Positions 17,260 through 58,323 of a stretch of 64,000 nt of DNA are shown piece by piece. This DNA comes from an uncultured Eubacteriales bacterium. Lineage in GTDB: Bacteria; Bacillota; Clostridia; Lachnospirales; Lachnospiraceae. Both the position numbers and the translations under genes were made by a program. The stretch spans positions 1 through 64,000 of the forward strand of contig CASFBK010000012.1 of NCBI GenBank assembly GCA_949292785.1, written 5' to 3'. How positions within the stretch are numbered: position 1 is the stretch's first letter; each line of letters opens with the position of its first letter. The notes below the pieces were generated by a model, which was given only the letters and a program-made list of their open reading frames with translations, was not told where the DNA came from and searched no databases.

Positions 17260-18018
17260 TTATTTTACTGCAATCAAATCCTTCACTACTTCTCCCGCAA
17301 TAATCAGTCCCACCACAGAAGGGACAAATGCATTGCTTCCCGGTACCTGCCTGCGCTGGGTACACTTTCTTACGGTTCCCGGCGGACAGATACAGTTTGT
17401 TTTACAGCTAATCGCCATATCATCTACGGGAACCAAGGGCTTCTCTTTCGAATACACCACCTTTAAATGGTCAATTCCACGCTTCTTTAACTCCCTGCGC
17501 ATGACCTTTGCCAGCGGGCAGACAGATGTTTTATAAATATCTGCCACCTGAAACGCTGTAGGGTCCATTTTATTCCCTGCGCCCATGGAACTGATTATGG
17601 GTACGCCCGCTTTATCCGCCTGCACTGCCAGCTGCAATTTTCCACTGACGGTATCTATGGCATCTACGATATAATCATACTGGGAAAAATCAAATTGTTC
17701 TGCGGTATCCGGCAGATAAAAGGTCTTATAAATATTGACCTGCGCGTCCGGATTAATCTCCAGAATACGTTCCTTTGCCACATCTACCTTATATTTTCCC
17801 ACTGTTTTTGTGGTCGCATAAATCTGGCGATTGATATTGGTCAAACATACCTTATCATCATCAATCAAATCCAATGTTCCTACTCCACTGCGGGCAAGGG
17901 CTTCCACCGTATAGCCGCCTACGCCGCCGATACCAAAGACAGCTACCCGGGCATCCCGTAAGGATTCCATTCCTTTTTTTCCTATCAATAGTTCCGTTCT
18001 TGAAAATCGATTTAACAT
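17260..18018 (-). CDS. tcdA: tRNA threonylcarbamoyladenosine dehydratase (ThiF/E1 family)
   Basis: A 252-residue E1-like enzyme that uses ATP to cyclise t6A37 of ANN-decoding tRNAs to ct6A. Seen: nucleotide-binding VFGIGGVGGYTVEALARSG, DDDKVCLTNINRQ with the Asn-Arg-Gln of the adenylation site, DAIDTVSGKLQL, SSMGAGNKMDP, and the Cys-rich C-terminal part (CKTNC, CPPGTVRKC) typical of the CsdL/TcdA group. Length is normal. The gene overlaps the hemerythrin gene upstream by 7 bp, so translation is probably coupled. A good terminator follows. Alternative ThiF/MoeB roles are less likely because the typical TcdA ending is present. Confidence 0.88.
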   Translation of the reverse strand: MLNRFSRTELLIGKKGMESLRDARVAVFGIGGVGGYTVEALARSGVGTLDLIDDDKVCLTNINRQIYATTKTVGKYKVDVAKERILEINPDAQVNIYKTFYLPDTAEQFDFSQYDYIVDAIDTVSGKLQLAVQADKAGVPIISSMGAGNKMDPTAFQVADIYKTSVCPLAKVMRRELKKRGIDHLKVVYSKEKPLVPVDDMAISCKTNCICPPGTVRKCTQRRQVPGSNAFVPSVVGLIIAGEVVKDLIAVK

Positions 18019-18839
18019 TTTTCTCTGCTTTCTTCTCCAATTAATTTGTCTGCCTTTAAAATATGATTAATCAGCCATCCCAGCAGAAAATCCATTAACT
18101 CTTCCAGATACTGCTGCTGATTATCATCTACCTCTTCCAGGTTAATTTCTGTCAGTCTTTCTATAAAAGATTCATGTGCTCGTTTCTGAGCATCTATTCT
18201 GGAATAATTTATCTGTTCCATGTATTCTTCTTCATCGCTGAAATGCTCTTTGGTATAATCCCGCAATTCGTCCAATATGGATACGATTTCATCATATTTG
18301 TCATGTAGCAGCTCTGCCTTTATCAACTCATTTGCCCGTGCTATGATTTCAAATAATTTCTTATGTTCCCGGTCAATCATTTCCACACCGGTGAGATATT
18401 TGTCTGTAAACTCAGCAGGATTTTCCTCTTCCTTTAACGGATTCATTTTCCCAATCATCATATCACTGCTTAAAATATGATGATACAGCCATCTGGTGAG
18501 ATAACGCATGAGCTCTTCTAAAGTCTCCTGCTGTTCTTCGGGCGTATCCTTTCCGGCTAAGTCCAACATATCTATTTTTTCCCGAAACTGTGCATGCTGC
18601 TTTTTCTGCATGGGAAGCTCAGGGTCCTGAATACTCTCCATATATGCTTCTTCGTGTTCAAAGTGCGTATCTGCATACTCCCTCAAATCCTCTAACAATG
18701 CCTCTATCTGATGATATTTATCCATAACTACATCGTTATGAATCAGCTCCATAACCCCATTGATAATTTCAAACAAATGACGGTGTTCCTCATCAATCTG
18801 CGCAATCCCAATCAGACAATCTTCTGTAAAATGATACAT
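18012..18839 (-). CDS. Tandem hemerythrin protein
   Basis: A 275-residue soluble protein of two hemerythrin four-helix bundles (about 1-125 and 135-275). Both carry the di-iron ligand pattern: EEHRHLFEI, HFEHEEAYM, HAQF and HHILSSD in the first, and REHKKLFEI, HFSDEEEYM, HESF and NHILKAD in the second. The second copy has SDEEE where the first has EHEEA, so one His ligand differs. Such proteins bind O2, NO or iron in anaerobes and may protect against oxidants. The start follows AAAGGAGGAATATT; an ATG 24 bp upstream is rejected. Its 3' end overlaps tcdA by 7 bp. The fused two-domain layout is less common than single hemerythrins. Confidence 0.88.
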   Translation of the reverse strand: MYHFTEDCLIGIAQIDEEHRHLFEIINGVMELIHNDVVMDKYHQIEALLEDLREYADTHFEHEEAYMESIQDPELPMQKKQHAQFREKIDMLDLAGKDTPEEQQETLEELMRYLTRWLYHHILSSDMMIGKMNPLKEEENPAEFTDKYLTGVEMIDREHKKLFEIIARANELIKAELLHDKYDEIVSILDELRDYTKEHFSDEEEYMEQINYSRIDAQKRAHESFIERLTEINLEEVDDNQQQYLEELMDFLLGWLINHILKADKLIGEESREKC

Positions 18840-18904
18840 AATATTCCTCCTTTTCACATGCATTTATGAGTATACTTTTTTACTTTTCTCACTGATTTCC
18901 TATT

Positions 18905-20120: not shown

Positions 20121-20184
20121 CTATAATGCATGAACACTATAATGTCTGTTCACTATAACGCTCGTTCACTATAATGCCTGTTCA
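20121..20184. repeat. Four tandem copies of a 16-bp repeat
   Basis: Head-to-tail units at 20121, 20137, 20153 and 20169 have the consensus CTATAATGYCTGTTCA. The last unit encodes the final codons and stop of the PPK2 gene (EQAL then TAG), so the array seems to have grown outward from the gene end. Unit 1 differs most (CATGAACA). Confidence 0.9.
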
Positions 20185-21635
20185 ATGGCATCAATTACTA
20201 TCTTTAATGCTTTAATTCTGGCATACTTCTTATCATTGGATTCCAATATATGCCATGGTGCATAAGAGGTATTGGTCTTTTGCAGCATTTCATTGACTGC
20301 ACCTTCATACAAATCCCATTTCTCCCGATTGCGCCAGTCTTCTTCGGTAATCTTCCACTGCTTTTCCGGCGTATTCTGCCGCTCGTTAAAGCGTTCTAAC
20401 TGAGTTTCCTTATCAATCTGAACCCAGAACTTGATAATTACTGCTCCCCAGTCAGAAAGCTCTTTTTCAAATTCATTGATTTCATTATACGCTCTCTGCC
20501 AGTCATTTTCACTGCAAAAGCCTTCTAAACGTTCTACCATGACCCTGCCATACCAGGTTCTATCAAAAATGGCAATATGTCCGGTCTTGGGAAGCCTGTT
20601 CCAAAAACGCCAGAGATAATGTCTTGCCTTTTCCTTCGGCTCCGGACTTGCAATAGGATGTACCTCAAAGCCGCGCGGGTCCAAAGCTCCGGTAATCCGC
20701 TTGATATTCCCGCCTTTTCCTGCCGCATCCCATCCTTCATATGCAATGATAACCGGTACTTTCTTTCGATACAGCTTGTTATGAAGACTTCTAAGCTTCT
20801 TTTGAAGCTCATCTAATTGTTTTTGATATTCTTCTTCGGTGATTGTCTTATCCAGTGATACCTCTTGTAACTTCGGTATCTTCTCTAACGGAAATACATT
20901 CTGTAATAAAGGCACTGCCATGGCGCTGTTCTTAAGTGCCGTATCAATTCCACTGACCAGTGTTTCTAAGACCTGAAGCTCCGCCCATTTTTTATTTTTT
21001 GCATCTACAATATACCATGGGTCCGCAGATGCATTGGTATCATTGAGATAGCGGTCAAATACTGCCAGACACTTCTCATAATGCTTGTTCTGCCAGCTAT
21101 CCTTTGTATTTACCCTCCAACGGGTGTTTTTATCTTCTTCTAGTCCGTCAATCCGCTTCTTCTGCTCTTTCTGGCTGATTTGGAAGAAGAACTTCATTAC
21201 CAGATAACCATTGTCCGTAAGCTGACGCTCAAAGCGCTTGACACTTTCTATTTTTTTCTTGTAATCCTTTTCCTTCAAGGTACCATTCAGACAGTCTTCT
21301 GTCACCTCGTCCATCCATCCGGCATCTAAGAACATAAACTTTCCGGCTTCCGGAATCTTGACAAAATAGCGGTAAAGAAATGGCTTTCTGCGCTCCTCCT
21401 CTGTTGGCACATCCATGGTTGCCACCTTAAAAAAGCGTGGGTCGATGTTGCGGATTACTTTTCCAAGTACGCTTCCCTTTCCTGCTGTTCCCCATCCTTC
21501 AAACAGTACCAATACCGGCAGACCATGCTCTTTTATCATCATCTGCTGTCTGGAAAGCTTGTCCCTTGCTGCTTTCAGTCTTTCTTCCAGTTCTGCTTCT
21601 TCGGGTTTTTGTGGTTTGTTCCAATTCTCTAACAT
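20169..21635 (-). CDS. Two-domain polyphosphate kinase 2 (polyphosphate:AMP phosphotransferase-like)
   Basis: A 488-residue protein made of two PPK2 domains. Domain 1 (about 1-225) has the Walker A FEGWGTAGKGS. Domain 2 (about 255-488) has YEGWDAAGKGGNIKR and the lid/Walker B FDRTWYGR. Where active PPK2 domains carry DRSWY-like residues, domain 1 has LDAGWMDE, so it may be structural while domain 2 catalyses. Two-domain members phosphorylate AMP with polyphosphate. The start follows AAAGGAGGAGAAGG. It follows acylphosphatase and ArsC-like genes in one operon. The gene ends inside a 16-bp tandem repeat. Confidence 0.9.
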   Translation of the reverse strand: MLENWNKPQKPEEAELEERLKAARDKLSRQQMMIKEHGLPVLVLFEGWGTAGKGSVLGKVIRNIDPRFFKVATMDVPTEEERRKPFLYRYFVKIPEAGKFMFLDAGWMDEVTEDCLNGTLKEKDYKKKIESVKRFERQLTDNGYLVMKFFFQISQKEQKKRIDGLEEDKNTRWRVNTKDSWQNKHYEKCLAVFDRYLNDTNASADPWYIVDAKNKKWAELQVLETLVSGIDTALKNSAMAVPLLQNVFPLEKIPKLQEVSLDKTITEEEYQKQLDELQKKLRSLHNKLYRKKVPVIIAYEGWDAAGKGGNIKRITGALDPRGFEVHPIASPEPKEKARHYLWRFWNRLPKTGHIAIFDRTWYGRVMVERLEGFCSENDWQRAYNEINEFEKELSDWGAVIIKFWVQIDKETQLERFNERQNTPEKQWKITEEDWRNREKWDLYEGAVNEMLQKTNTSYAPWHILESNDKKYARIKALKIVIDAIEQAL

Positions 21636-21682
21636 GCCCTTCTCCTCCTTTATTATGAGCACTCATACCAGGCGGCTTTGTA

Positions 21683-46650: not shown

Positions 46651-48273
46651 TTATTCAAGAGCTTCCTTTCCCTCTGCACCGGTACGTATTTTCACTACAT
46701 TCTCAAGCTCGTATACAAAAATTTTTCCATCTCCGATATTTCCTGTATATAGAACTTCCTTAAGAGTATCAACAAGAAGCCCCAGCGGAACGGTGCTTAT
46801 CACAATTTCAACCTTTATCTTCGGAAGAAGATGGGAAGAATATTCTGCCCCCCGATAGATTTCGGTATTTCCCTTTTGAATTCCGCATCCGCATACCTGC
46901 GTTACTGTCATACCTGTAATTTCAATCTTATCCAATGCCTTTTTCAAAATTTCAAATTTAGAAGCATTCATTATAACAACTACATTCCGAATCCTTCCAT
47001 CCACTTCATAATCTGAAATATTAAGCTCTGTCGTCTCATCAATTGCTCTGATTTTTGAACTATTTGCTGCTTCTGCTGAAAGGAACTGAGCCGTATTAAA
47101 AAAGTCTGCATAGCTGCTTGCAAGTCCATGTTCACATTTATCAAGTCCTGTAATTTCTGTATCCTGACTAACACGTAACCCCAGCGTTACTTTAATCAAT
47201 GTAAATATTACAAACATAACAATAAGCACGAAAATAGCAGTTGCGAAAACTCCAAGGCACTGAATTCCAAATCCATTCCATTTTCCTGTATAAAACAGAC
47301 CTGTTTCGGTGGAAAATAATCCAACGAGAATAGAGCCTGTAGCTCCGCACATACCATGGACAGTGATTGCTCCTACCGGATCATCTACCTTCATCTTTGT
47401 AATCAGTTCAACTCCAAAAATCAGCACAAATGCAGCTGCTACTGCCGTAAGTATGGCTCCAAGGGGTGTCTCTACATCGCATCCTGCGGTAATTGCTACA
47501 AGACCTGCTAACACACCATTTAAAGTCATGGCAACATCCGGCTTGCCGTAACGTATCCATGTAAGGAACATGGTTACTACAGCACATGTTGCAGCACAGA
47601 TATTGGTATTGAATAATACCGTTCCTACTTGTGTAAGGGCGTGTGATGAATCATTCATCACAACTGCCCCGCCATTAAATCCAAACCATCCAAACCAGAG
47701 GATAAAAATTCCAAGAGCCCCGATTGTAAGATTATGCCCTGGGATTGCTCTTGCCTTCCCCTTCGAATCAAACTTTCCGATTCTTGCTCCCACAACATAT
47801 GCTCCTGCAAGGGCAGCCATACCGCCAACCACATGTACAGCGGTTCCGCCTGCACAATCATGGAATCCTAATGTCTTGAGCCATCCGCTTTCATTCCAGA
47901 TTGTTCTTACTGCAAGCGGATAAATGACAGCGCTCATAATTGCGGAATACGCAAGATACGCTTTAAATGCAGTTCGCCCTGCCATTGCACCTGATACAAT
48001 GGTAGTGGCTGTGGCACAAAACACGGTAGCATACATGATAAATGCCATGGAAGAAAAATCTGTTTCCTGAGGAGCACCTGTTCCATACATGATTCGGTAT
48101 CCTACTATCCAGAAAAGTATCGACCCCACACAGTAGTCCAACAGATTTTTCATAATGATATTTCCGGCATTCTTAGCTCTGGTAAAACCAGTCTCAAGCA
48201 TTGCGAATCCGGCTTGCATGAAAAAGACGAGGATGGTACATACCATAATCCAAATTACATTTTGATTCGTCAT
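46651..48273 (-). CDS. Ammonium transporter fused to a P-II regulatory domain
   Basis: A 540-residue fusion. Residues 1-~395 are an eleven-helix Amt channel (FFMQAGFAMLETG, AGGTAVHVVGGMAALAGA, WFGFNGGA). A linker follows. Residues ~430-540 are a GlnB/GlnK P-II domain with MNASKFEILKKAL, a T-loop GNTEIYRGAEYSS that keeps the uridylylatable Tyr, and the C-terminal IFVYELENVVKIRTG. Normally P-II is a separate protein that plugs Amt under nitrogen excess; here it is tethered. It sits between the oligopeptide-type importer and the MerR gene. Confidence 0.92.
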   Translation of the reverse strand: MTNQNVIWIMVCTILVFFMQAGFAMLETGFTRAKNAGNIIMKNLLDYCVGSILFWIVGYRIMYGTGAPQETDFSSMAFIMYATVFCATATTIVSGAMAGRTAFKAYLAYSAIMSAVIYPLAVRTIWNESGWLKTLGFHDCAGGTAVHVVGGMAALAGAYVVGARIGKFDSKGKARAIPGHNLTIGALGIFILWFGWFGFNGGAVVMNDSSHALTQVGTVLFNTNICAATCAVVTMFLTWIRYGKPDVAMTLNGVLAGLVAITAGCDVETPLGAILTAVAAAFVLIFGVELITKMKVDDPVGAITVHGMCGATGSILVGLFSTETGLFYTGKWNGFGIQCLGVFATAIFVLIVMFVIFTLIKVTLGLRVSQDTEITGLDKCEHGLASSYADFFNTAQFLSAEAANSSKIRAIDETTELNISDYEVDGRIRNVVVIMNASKFEILKKALDKIEITGMTVTQVCGCGIQKGNTEIYRGAEYSSHLLPKIKVEIVISTVPLGLLVDTLKEVLYTGNIGDGKIFVYELENVVKIRTGAEGKEALE

Positions 48274-54028: not shown

Positions 54029-54688
54029 TTATTCTACTTCCTGAACAGAATCATGCTGTCCGGTAATGGAATAAATCACCCATTCTGCAATGTTAGTCGC
54101 ATGGTCTCCAATACGTTCAAAATACTTTGCCACCATCAGCAAATCTGCTGCCTGCTCGCTGTGCTGTGCATTATTGCGAATCAGTTCCATCAATGTAGAC
54201 TTTACCTCATCAAACAAATCGTCTACCGTATCATCACTGTCAATGACTGACTGTGCCAGCTTCAAATCCTTCTGGACAAAGGCTTCCACACTTCGTGTCA
54301 CCATCAGCGTAGTCTCCATTGCCATCTGGGGAATCAGAGTCAAATCCTTGATATATGGTTCCTCTGCCAGTGCTATGGTAATTTCTGAAATATCAGACGC
54401 CTGGTCGCCGATACGCTCCATATCCGTAATCATTTTAAGGGCTGCCGATATGAGACGCAGGTCTCTTGCCACTGGCTGCTGCTGCAGCAACAGCTTCATG
54501 CAAAGTGCCTCAATATCTCTTTCCTGGTGGTCGACTTCCTGGTCAAACTCAATCGCCTTTTTTGCCGACTCCACATCCTTGCGTATCAATGCATTTACTG
54601 CCATCTGAATTGCCTGTTCAATCAGGTTTCCCATTTCAATCAATTCATTATTCAGTTGTTCTAATTGTCTGTCAAAACGATTTCTCAT
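54029..54688 (-). CDS. phoU: Phosphate transport regulator PhoU
   Basis: A 219-residue all-helical protein made of two similar three-helix bundles, each with the metal-binding E-D-x-x-D-type segment (DMERIGDQASDISEI and YFERIGDHATNIAEW). PhoU restrains Pst transport and signals phosphate sufficiency to the PhoR kinase, which is not in the window. The gene begins 2 bp after pstB, with AGGAAGG overlapping the pstB end. A terminator follows. Confidence 0.96.
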   Translation of the reverse strand: MRNRFDRQLEQLNNELIEMGNLIEQAIQMAVNALIRKDVESAKKAIEFDQEVDHQERDIEALCMKLLLQQQPVARDLRLISAALKMITDMERIGDQASDISEITIALAEEPYIKDLTLIPQMAMETTLMVTRSVEAFVQKDLKLAQSVIDSDDTVDDLFDEVKSTLMELIRNNAQHSEQAADLLMVAKYFERIGDHATNIAEWVIYSITGQHDSVQEVE

Positions 54689-54690
54689 AC

Positions 54691-55455
54691 TTAACCAAAC
54701 CTTCCTGTAATGTAATCTTCCGTTCTCTTGTCCTGCGGAACTGAGAACATCTTTTCTGTTTCCCCATGCTCAATGATTTCTCCTAACAGGAAAAATACGG
54801 TCTTATCGGAAACACGGGTTGCCTGCTGCATGTTATGGGTTACCATTACAATCGTATAGTCCTTCTTTAACTCTATGACTAAATCTTCTATCTTAGACGT
54901 TGAAATAGGGTCCAATGCGGAAGTTGGCTCATCCATCAAAATCACCTCAGGATTTACCGCAAGGGCACGTGCAATGCAGATTCTCTGCTGCTGTCCACCG
55001 GACAGACCCAAAGCGCTCTTTTTCAAGCGGTCCTTTACCTCATCCCAGATAGCAGCATCCCGCAAAGACTTCTCTACGATTTCATCTAACTTTGCCTTGT
55101 TGCGGATTCCATGGGTACGAGGTCCATAAGCGATGTTATCATACACGCTCATGGGAAATGGATTTGGTTTCTGGAATACCATCCCTACCCGCTTACGCAG
55201 TTCATTCGTATCTATATTGTGATAAATATCTACGCCATCTAGTGTTACTTCTCCGGTAATTTTACATCCCTCTACCAAATCATTCATACGGTTCAAGGAT
55301 TTTAATAACGTAGACTTTCCGCAGCCGGAAGGTCCGATAAAAGCAGTAATTTCATTGGACAAAATCGGCAGATTTACATTTTTTAACGCATGAAAATCTC
55401 CGTAATATAAATCCAGCCCGCTAATGTTGATTTTGGGTGTTGGTTGTTTTATCAT
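54691..55455 (-). CDS. pstB: Phosphate ABC transporter ATPase PstB
   Basis: A 254-residue ATPase with Walker [13 protein letters not shown], the PstB-typical LNRMNDL, the [21 protein letters not shown]-loop region, signature [16 protein letters not shown], and Walker [14 protein letters not shown]. It energises high-affinity phosphate import with PstC and PstA. The start at 55455 follows AAAAGGAG; an ATG 18 bp upstream is rejected. Confidence 0.97.
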
Positions 55456-55481
55456 AAAAATTCTCCTTTTCACTTCACAGC

Positions 55482-56342
55482 TTATACTTTGGCAATTTTT
55501 TTCGCAATCCGGTTTGAAATCCAGTTGATAATCATAACAATCACCAGAAGGACAACCGCAGTTGCATAGGCTTCATCTGTATGAAATCCCTCAGAGGACA
55601 ATGCATACATGTGATAAGCAAGGGTACGGCCGGAATCCATCAGCCAGGAAAGTCCCTTTCCGCTTACGACCTCTGTAACGGTTCCTGCAGTATACATAAG
55701 AGCTGCCGTTTCGCCTACAATACGTCCAATGGCAAGGATAACACCGGAAAGAATTCCCGGCACTGCTGACGGAAGTACAATGCGAAAAATAGTACGGACG
55801 CGTCCTGCGCCAAGCCCAAAGCTGCCTTCCCGGTAAGAATCCGGTACCGACTTAAGCGCCTCCTCCGTGGTACGCATAATAAGAGGCAAAATCATAATTG
55901 CCAATGTCAATGCACCTGCCAGTAATGAAAGACGAAACTTTAATGTTGTTACGAAAAACAACATACCAAACAAACCATATACAATCGATGGAATACCGGA
56001 CAATGTCTCTGCGGTAATCCGAACTACTTTGACAATCTTATTTCCTTTTTTTGCATATTCCACCATGTAAATAGCAGAGCCGATGCCAATGGGAACCGCA
56101 ACAATCAATGTCACTATGGTAATCAACAGTGTATTAATCAGCGCCGGCATCAACGATACATTTTCACTATTATATTCCCATGCAAAAAGACTGGGCTTAA
56201 TATGTGGGATTCCATTCCACAAAATATATACAATAAGGAAAAACAATGCACAAAAGGTAATCAATGCCGCTGCCATTACCAGGATATACAATACCCACGA
56301 CAGAGGACCTCGCTTTCCTTTGCTGAACTTCTCATTTTTCAT
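55482..56342 (-). CDS. pstA: Phosphate ABC transporter permease PstA
   Basis: A 286-residue permease with six helices and the family segments [15 protein letters not shown] and [17 protein letters not shown] in the coupling loop. It overlaps pstC by 4 bp (ATGA). Standard length. Confidence 0.96.
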
Positions 56343-57205
56343 GCTTCGTTCCTCCTATTCAAAGTAGAAAACAACAGATTAATAATCAAGATAAATACGA
56401 ACAGTACCACACCTGTGGCAATCAGCGCCTGCCTATGTAAATCTGCTGCATATCCCATTTCAATTACGATATTGGAGGTAAGTGTACGGACTCCCTGGAA
56501 AATACTGTCCGGAATACGCGGCTGGTTGCCGGCTACCATAATCACCGCCATGGTCTCTCCAATGGCACGACCGATTCCCAGAATCACCCCTGCCATGATA
56601 CCGGACTTTGCCGCCGGAACCACGGTAAAGAATACACTTCTTTCATGAGTTGCCCCAAGTGCCAGCGCCCCCTCATAATAGCTTTCCGGGACTGCACGTA
56701 TTGCAGACTCACTGACTCCGATAATGGTAGGCAGAATCATAAGTCCAAGTAACAACGAAGCCGTCAAAATACTGGTTCCTTTGCATTCAAACTTTCCAAA
56801 CAGTTCCCGCATGAACGGAACCAACACCACCAGACCGAAAAATCCGTATACAACGGAAGGAATTCCCGCCAGCAGGTCCACCGCAGACTTCAACGGTCCG
56901 TATATCTTCTTCGGACAAAAACGCGCCATAAAGACGGCTGTTAAAATACCAATCGGAACTCCCACGATAATTGCTCCTGCTGTAATATAAATACTACCGA
57001 TAATCATAGGAAGTATTCCATAGGATGCAGGAGAGTTATTCGGCGCCCATTTTGTCCCGGTCAAAAATGAAAATAAACCAATCTCCTTCATAGCCGGTAT
57101 TCCGTTCGCAAACAGGAATACGCAAATCAGCAGAACCGCCAGAATAGAGGTGAGCGCTGCTATGAAGAAAATAACATGTGCAAATCCTTCTTTTATTTTT
57201 CGCAT
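56339..57205 (-). CDS. pstC: Phosphate ABC transporter permease PstC
   Basis: A 288-residue permease with six helices and the family segments LLAGIPSVVYGFFGL and AVPESYYEGALALGAT. A hydrophobic N-terminal helix and extracellular loop (LTGTKWAPNNSPASYG) match PstC. AAGGAG lies before the start. A 185-bp gap with a hairpin and a family A-like repeat separates it from pstS. Confidence 0.96.
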   Translation of the reverse strand: MRKIKEGFAHVIFFIAALTSILAVLLICVFLFANGIPAMKEIGLFSFLTGTKWAPNNSPASYGILPMIIGSIYITAGAIIVGVPIGILTAVFMARFCPKKIYGPLKSAVDLLAGIPSVVYGFFGLVVLVPFMRELFGKFECKGTSILTASLLLGLMILPTIIGVSESAIRAVPESYYEGALALGATHERSVFFTVVPAAKSGIMAGVILGIGRAIGETMAVIMVAGNQPRIPDSIFQGVRTLTSNIVIEMGYAADLHRQALIATGVVLFVFILIINLLFSTLNRRNEA

Positions 57206-57235
57206 AAATTACTCCTTGTTATGAGCACTTAGCGA

Positions 57236-57300
57236 CTGTTTTTGGGTCGCTTACGTGCGATACATGCCGCCGTTAGTGAGGTGTTTTCGAGCTTACCAGG
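57236..57300. repeat. Intergenic repeat related to family A
   Basis: Between pstS and pstC the strings TTAGTGAGGT and TTTTCGAGCTTA match the 41-67 element (TTAGCGAGGT, then TTTCGAGCTTA). A surrounding GTCGCTTACGTGCGA also resembles GTCGCTTGCGACA at the window start. Confidence 0.45.
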
Positions 57301-57318
57301 CGACTTCATTTTTTCTGT

Positions 57319-57355
57319 GTTGAAAGGGACTGCCGTATACAGCAGCCCCCTTCAG
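57319..57355 (-). terminator. Hairpin between pstS and pstC, probable attenuator
   Basis: On the minus strand GGGGCTGC pairs with GCAGTCCC-type sequence (57326-57334 with 57342-57349) around TGTATAC, followed by TTTC. A partial terminator here would give more PstS than membrane components, as binding proteins usually need. Confidence 0.6.
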
Positions 57356-57390: not shown

Positions 57391-58323
57391 TTACCAAGTG
57401 GTTGTTTCACCTGTGAAGATTGCCTTAACTTCATCTGCTGTCATATCGTCAACAGTGTTTTCATTATTTACAACTACTGCAATACCATCGATTGCAATAA
57501 CGGTAGATGTTAAAGAGCTTTCGCTGTCTTTTAACTCTCTGGAAGCCATTCCGATATCCGCAGTTCCATCCATTGCTGCCTGGATACCGGTCGTAGAATC
57601 ACTCTGGTTGATTTCAATTTCAACATCCGGATTTACTTTTTCATAAGCTTCTTTTAATTTTTCCATAACAGGTGTTACAGAAGAAGACCCAGCGATTACC
57701 ACTTTTCCGCTAACGCCTGTGCTTTCAAATGCCTGTGCATCATCAACAGAAGCGATATAACCTGCATTTTCTACTACTGCCTGACCTTCTGCACTTAAGA
57801 TAAAGTTAATAAAGTCCTGAGTAGCATCGTTTGGTGTTCCATTTGTTGCAATGTTGAATGGTCTGGAAATTTTATATGTACCATTCTTAATGTTTTCTAC
57901 TGTTGCCTCTGCTCCGTCAATCTTTACCGCCTTCACTTCATCACTTAAGGAGCCAAGAGATACATATCCGATTGCATTTGGGTCACCAGCCACATTAGAT
58001 AATACGACTTCTGTGCTGTTTGCAATCACAGCTTCTACTGTGGTCATATCTGTTTTGTTGCCGTCAGCATCCTTTTCTTCCACTCCAAACAGTTCGATAA
58101 AAGCGCCTCTTGTACCGGAACCATCCTCACGAGATATTACAGTAATTCCTCCGCTTACGCCGGCTGCTTCTGTATCCTCTTTGTTTTCTGCGTTTGCATC
58201 TGCATCATTCTCTGTGCCCGCACCTGCATTACTTCCACTATTTACTGTGTTGTCTGAACCGCACCCAACCATTGCGGTGGCTGTCATAGCCATAACCATA
58301 AGAGCTACAATGAATTTTTTCAT
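57391..58323 (-). CDS. pstS: Phosphate-binding lipoprotein PstS, circularly permuted
   Basis: A 310-residue lipoprotein (lipobox MVGC, Cys21) and linker, then a phosphate-binding protein whose halves are swapped. The part normally second comes first: SREDGSGTRGAF (64), NAIGYVSLGSL (116), SRPFNIAT (153), FILSAEGQ (174). The part normally first follows: AGSSSVTPVMEKL (211), GTADIGMASREL (253), and the protein stops at AIFTGETTTW (301-310), which in ordinary PstS directly precedes the REDGSGTR loop. All phosphate-binding loops are kept. The start follows GAGAGGAAG; an upstream ATG is rejected. It is the first gene of pstSCAB-phoU, so it should be functional. Confidence 0.93.
   Translation of the reverse strand: MKKFIVALMVMAMTATAMVGCGSDNTVNSGSNAGAGTENDADANAENKEDTEAAGVSGGITVISREDGSGTRGAFIELFGVEEKDADGNKTDMTTVEAVIANSTEVVLSNVAGDPNAIGYVSLGSLSDEVKAVKIDGAEATVENIKNGTYKISRPFNIATNGTPNDATQDFINFILSAEGQAVVENAGYIASVDDAQAFESTGVSGKVVIAGSSSVTPVMEKLKEAYEKVNPDVEIEINQSDSTTGIQAAMDGTADIGMASRELKDSESSLTSTVIAIDGIAVVVNNENTVDDMTADEVKAIFTGETTTW

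Follow-up and report, generated by a model that had tools for sequence, protein, structure and literature searches.

A naturally permuted phosphate-binding protein, PstS, in the pst operon of an uncultured Lachnospiraceae bacterium

Can a phosphate-binding protein carry its two halves in exchanged order and still serve phosphate uptake? The question is raised by pstS of an uncultured Lachnospiraceae bacterium, located at 57391..58323 on the minus strand of the 64,000-nucleotide stretch analysed here (the window; contig CASFBK010000012.1, positions 1 to 64,000) and recognised from its open reading frame (ORF) translation, profile matches, structures, and relatives as encoding a lipoprotein of 310 residues. 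An earlier reading of the letters alone, the original prediction, had proposed a PstS with circularly permuted halves and a cut placed at the hinge; the permuted order has stood, but the hinge has not. We are confident that the gene encodes a working, circularly permuted PstS derived from a single old event in the Bacillota, with fold and phosphate cleft kept. This rests directly on the order of the halves, the operon, conservation, the predicted fold, the match to the permuted crystal structure 4H1X, and the tree of PstC and PstA.

As had been claimed, the translated motifs follow one another as SREDGSGTR (residues 64-72; 58108-58134, within the C-half), AIGYVSLGSL, AGSSSVTP, GTADIGMASREL, and IFTGETTTW (residues 302-310), directly before the stop. 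Two profiles recognise the protein in two swapped stretches each. The best PF12849 stretch, which is C-terminal, pairs protein residues 199-309 with model positions 4-123, and the protein scores 124.3 bits (E value 9.9e-36) against a gathering cut-off of 27. The best TIGR02136 stretch, also C-terminal, pairs residues 196-309 with positions 31-152, and the whole-protein score over the two swapped stretches is 198.7 bits (E 1.2e-58), below the curated cut-off of 206.6; PstS is therefore not classed as a curated member, and both of its halves are homologous to the model. Since the canonical profile splits and under-scores the permuted protein, surveys run at the curated score can miss this form. 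When the genome was searched with TIGR02136, model positions 164-294 were found upstream of 31-156 (E 1.8e-28 and 4.8e-31). The canonical chains 4gd5 and 4q8r match as two swapped pieces, and in the 4gd5 alignment query residue 309 falls on chain residue 143 and query residue 52 on chain residue 146, which puts the chain opening after IFTG..W and before the SREDGSGTR loop, with the former ends joined. The cut point given in the original prediction is thereby borne out, the comparison having been made with 4gd5, 4q8r, and 30 canonical loci rather than with PstS of B. subtilis. Half-models built from the permuted set, and compared over 92 permuted and 30 canonical rows, likewise find the C-half followed by the N-half in the window and the reverse order in canonical loci.

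Read along the protein (all on the minus strand), a signal peptide with a lipobox at Cys21 (58261..58323, from sequence reading) is followed by the canonical C-half, now first (residues 57-192; 57748..58155), the join of the former C- and N-termini (about residues 193-202; 57718..57747), and the canonical N-half, now last and ending at W310 of IFTGETTTW (residues 203-310; 57394..57717), both halves being delimited by profile and structure matches and by the half-models. The join measures 9-12 residues in 92/92 permuted rows. A ribosome-binding site, AGAGGAAG, lies 8 bases 5' of the ATG, so that this site and the lipobox are both present as described earlier.

The same permuted order was found in 80/80 loci kept elsewhere (the best 80 of 504 matches, chosen by likeness to the query), and the loci among the matches listed include Roseburia, Blautia, Anaerotruncus, Thermoclostridium, Tepidanaerobacter, Phascolarctobacterium, Streptococcus, and Coriobacteriales. 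Canonical TIGR02136, which as a query carries no bias towards the permuted order, was used on samples of the class and family; architectures in these and in a phylum sample were counted by eye from match tables. The permuted pair was present in 22 of the 118 class genomes, with any match in 87 and a match above the cut-off in 45. The search across Lachnospiraceae, proposed earlier as a check, found permuted PstS in 21/60 genomes (any match, 46/60; above the cut-off, 21/60). When the window protein served as query, 7/199 genomes of the phylum sample gave an uninterrupted permuted match (E 1e-20 or better). Both forms occur together in single genomes of the family sample (G174) and the class sample (G080). 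Tandem permuted pstS pairs ahead of pstC were seen at L142 (in the gene table) and L041 (as two permuted rows), and a second permuted pstS pair at G144:C55:96417-97319 (-) contains several stops and seems to have decayed.

At the structural level, the C-half precedes the N-half in one collinear bilobed fold, as in 4H1X, and the structure comparison suggested with the original prediction gave a predicted fold that matches this permuted structure. Taken by itself, stretch 182-260 of the mature model fits onto the canonical structures 9l8j_A and 4pqj_C at 1.3-1.4 A; it ends inside strand 252-266 of the model, which we take to be a crossing strand. From this superposition and the crossing strand, the new C-terminus (290) and N-terminus (about 38) would lie in the second lobe and not at the hinge. 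The hinge-placed cut was rejected on these segment superpositions, and in the model the lipid anchor appears shifted to the second lobe, with a corresponding change in tether geometry.

No variation is seen in the pocket motifs of either half across 71 aligned permuted sequences, and 10 of the 11 named pocket positions pass the cut-offs for columns common to permuted rows and canonical relatives, a comparison that drew 33 permuted and 14 canonical rows from the 66 in the tree. By E. coli numbering, these conserved positions are the phosphate-contacting loops; the position of E. coli D56 is Ser in the window PstS, 4gd5, and 4q8r alike, according to the alignments. Conservation of the pocket suggests that the window PstS binds phosphate. 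The form is real and widespread, and it probably functions normally.

Physiological evidence comes from Streptococcus pneumoniae, whose SP_2084 is the protein of 4H1X. PMC6722419 describes SP_2084-8 as the Pst1 operon, adjoining PnpRS; the PDB name for SP_2084 is 'pstS 2', and PMC11075461 assigns the name pstS2 to SP_1400. PMC4913102 does not print SP_2084; its pst1 is tied to SP_2084 by the statement there that pnpRS immediately precedes pst1, together with PMC6722419. That paper on pst1 reports that deletion of both Pst systems in an unencapsulated pneumococcus lowers phosphate uptake by about half, that starved cells depend on Pst1 for optimal uptake when phosphate is low, and that pst1 transcript levels are about 210-fold higher at 10 uM phosphate. 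These uptake and regulation data make it very probable that a permuted PstS is functional in vivo.

For the question of origin, the halves were put into a common order before the PstS trees were built, 3 ORFs with a single half were dropped, and the permuted tree rows were hand-picked (36/92). The PstC and PstA tree (50 of 53 pairs used) separates the permuted operons from the rest at a single branch, without exception in its 50 rows (29 vs 21; Shimodaira-Hasegawa-like approximate likelihood ratio test, SH-aLRT, 99.3), and the C-half tree gathers the permuted rows into one clade (SH-aLRT 79). In the careful PstS tree, from which 9 of 66 rows were dropped, the permuted rows group, but the canonical row L136 is among the deepest of them; one permuted clade is not rejected there (log-likelihood 0.15 lower; approximately unbiased test, p-AU 0.474). 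In the 66-row quick tree, the constrained single-clade tree scores 9.4 higher (p-AU 0.64). The PstS trees support one origin weakly. The most economical reading is one origin, with the operon travelling as a unit, and we infer duplication and trimming as its route.

Several observations weigh against a working protein of single origin. The careful PstS tree needs two changes, and 6% of bootstrap trees need one; the 66-row quick tree, which has long branches, needs three, two of them forced by starred branches, and the N-half tree also needs three, one clade not being rejected (p-AU 0.715). None of the ORFs in the retrieved loci showed a duplicated N-C-N-C frame. Only permuted relatives informed the fold prediction, and deletion of either Pst operon alone, pst1 included, left low-phosphate growth unchanged according to PMC4913102.

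On the single-event reading, an old change in the Bacillota, probably a tandem duplication of pstS followed by loss of the outer halves, would have linked the former C- and N-termini through about 10 residues while creating new ends between IFTG..W and the SREDGSGTR loop. Both halves would contribute pocket residues and close over phosphate like an ordinary PstS, and the loaded protein would dock on PstCA for PstB-driven import under PhoU control. The main physical change would be that the N-terminal lipid tether exits from the other lobe, a shift probably absorbed by a flexible linker of ordinary length.

An artefact of assembly, or of rearrangement within pstS, is scarcely conceivable and was rejected: nothing but the odd order suggests it, and that order recurs in every kept locus, in the class and family samples, and in the collinear crystal structure 4H1X. 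A switch of the permuted PstS to a different oxyanion, or to a purely sensory role, is very improbable. Such a switch is suggested by D242 (57598-57600), beside the pocket residue S243, which is Asp in 30/33 permuted rows vs Gly in 14/14 canonical rows; yet 4H1X, although permuted, has Gly at this position in the alignment, and the notion that the permutation itself altered the pocket was rejected on the same ground. The operon carries phoU, the pocket motifs are shared, and no second PstS was found in the source genome by searches with the window protein and PF12849, the former yielding nine further weak matches that all fall within residues 1-118 (E 3e-4 or worse), and the latter one extra place above the cut-off (31.4 vs 27 bits) whose frame is by eye a LysR-type regulator.

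We consider it unlikely that the permutation is functional in the sense that the shift of anchor and chain ends alters PstS opening or docking, PstCA having adapted. The PstCA of permuted operons do form their own clade, and of the two pneumococcal systems the one regulated by phosphate is that with the permuted PstS; joint inheritance of the operon, however, yields the same PstCA tree. Nor is the tether linker clearly different, the median distance from Cys to fold being similar at 21 residues (84 permuted rows) vs 17.5 (24 canonical rows) once the rows without a lipobox by the rule used are omitted (8/92 and 6/30, respectively), and both forms occur within one family (21/60 genomes each) and sometimes in one genome. 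We are similarly doubtful of the broader proposal that one permutation carried the anchor over to the opposite lobe, that PstC and PstA then adapted to it, and that an importer with its own docking geometry spread through the Bacillota into Coriobacteriales as an alternative phosphate importer.

The claimed pst-operon setting is confirmed by domain matches. On the minus strand, pstS is followed by pstC (56339..57205) and pstA (55482..56342), both assigned by BPD_transp_1 and operon position, pstB (54691..55455; ABC_tran, the scan covering 54694-55473), and phoU (54029..54688; PhoU domain in two stretches), and the permuted pstS thus stands in a pst operon with phoU, as in the 4H1X-type form. 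The pstS-pstC spacer holds a strong stem-loop (57321..57354, minus strand; 194-nt stretch, minimum free energy -59.4, z -4.6), similar to a hairpin in the relative L004, which may set the PstS to PstC ratio. After the hairpin and 5' of pstC lies a dispersed repeat of about 90 bp (57209-57306, minus strand), with further copies at L163-L169 and 12 copies above 80 bits in the source genome, the window copy included. In 7/8 aligned copies, a start codon shortly follows the AAGGAG-like downstream edge, and the downstream proteins appear by eye to be mutually unrelated. The repeat has no blastn match in L004, which carries AAGGAGTAATT ahead of the pstC start, and the window repeat therefore seems to occupy the exact position of a native ribosome-binding site, and its edges may carry a duplicated short AAG. 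The repeat might target ribosome-binding sites instead of bringing one. Weaker copies were found in 1/15 same-genus genomes searched (G373), three of them at 92-base spacing.

The window also encodes, on the minus strand, a PPK2 polyphosphate kinase matched in two stretches (20169-21662), an ammonium transporter with a fused P-II regulator domain (46651-48273), and a protein in which the Hemerythrin domain is matched twice (18012-18863).

The window PstS is a further example of the permuted form that 4H1X represents, a form that seems undiscussed: no description of a permuted PstS and no paper on 4H1X were found among the titles listed from an open-licence library, by which absence from print is not established. 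A protein central to nutrient uptake thus occurs naturally and commonly in circularly permuted form, and the natural permuted and unpermuted pairs, some in one genome, are suited to testing chain order and anchor position. 4H1X itself, the PstS of the Pst1 operon (PMC6722419), shares the permuted order but comes from Bacilli and has Gly in place of D242, and the pneumococcus also possesses a canonical-order PstS (4EXL), the counterpart of which was not found in the window genome. The C. perfringens proteins 4GD5 and 4Q8R, of the canonical TIGR02136 subfamily, resemble the window PstS in the sequence of each half and in the pocket motifs, but their N-half comes first and the structures align over 131 residues only. 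Treponema pallidum MglB-2 (Tp0684), likewise a tethered binding protein with a naturally occurring circular permutation, for which PMC4990184 proposes anchoring as the reason, differs in its type I sugar-binding fold, its cut point, its glucose ligand, and an extra lobe crossing.
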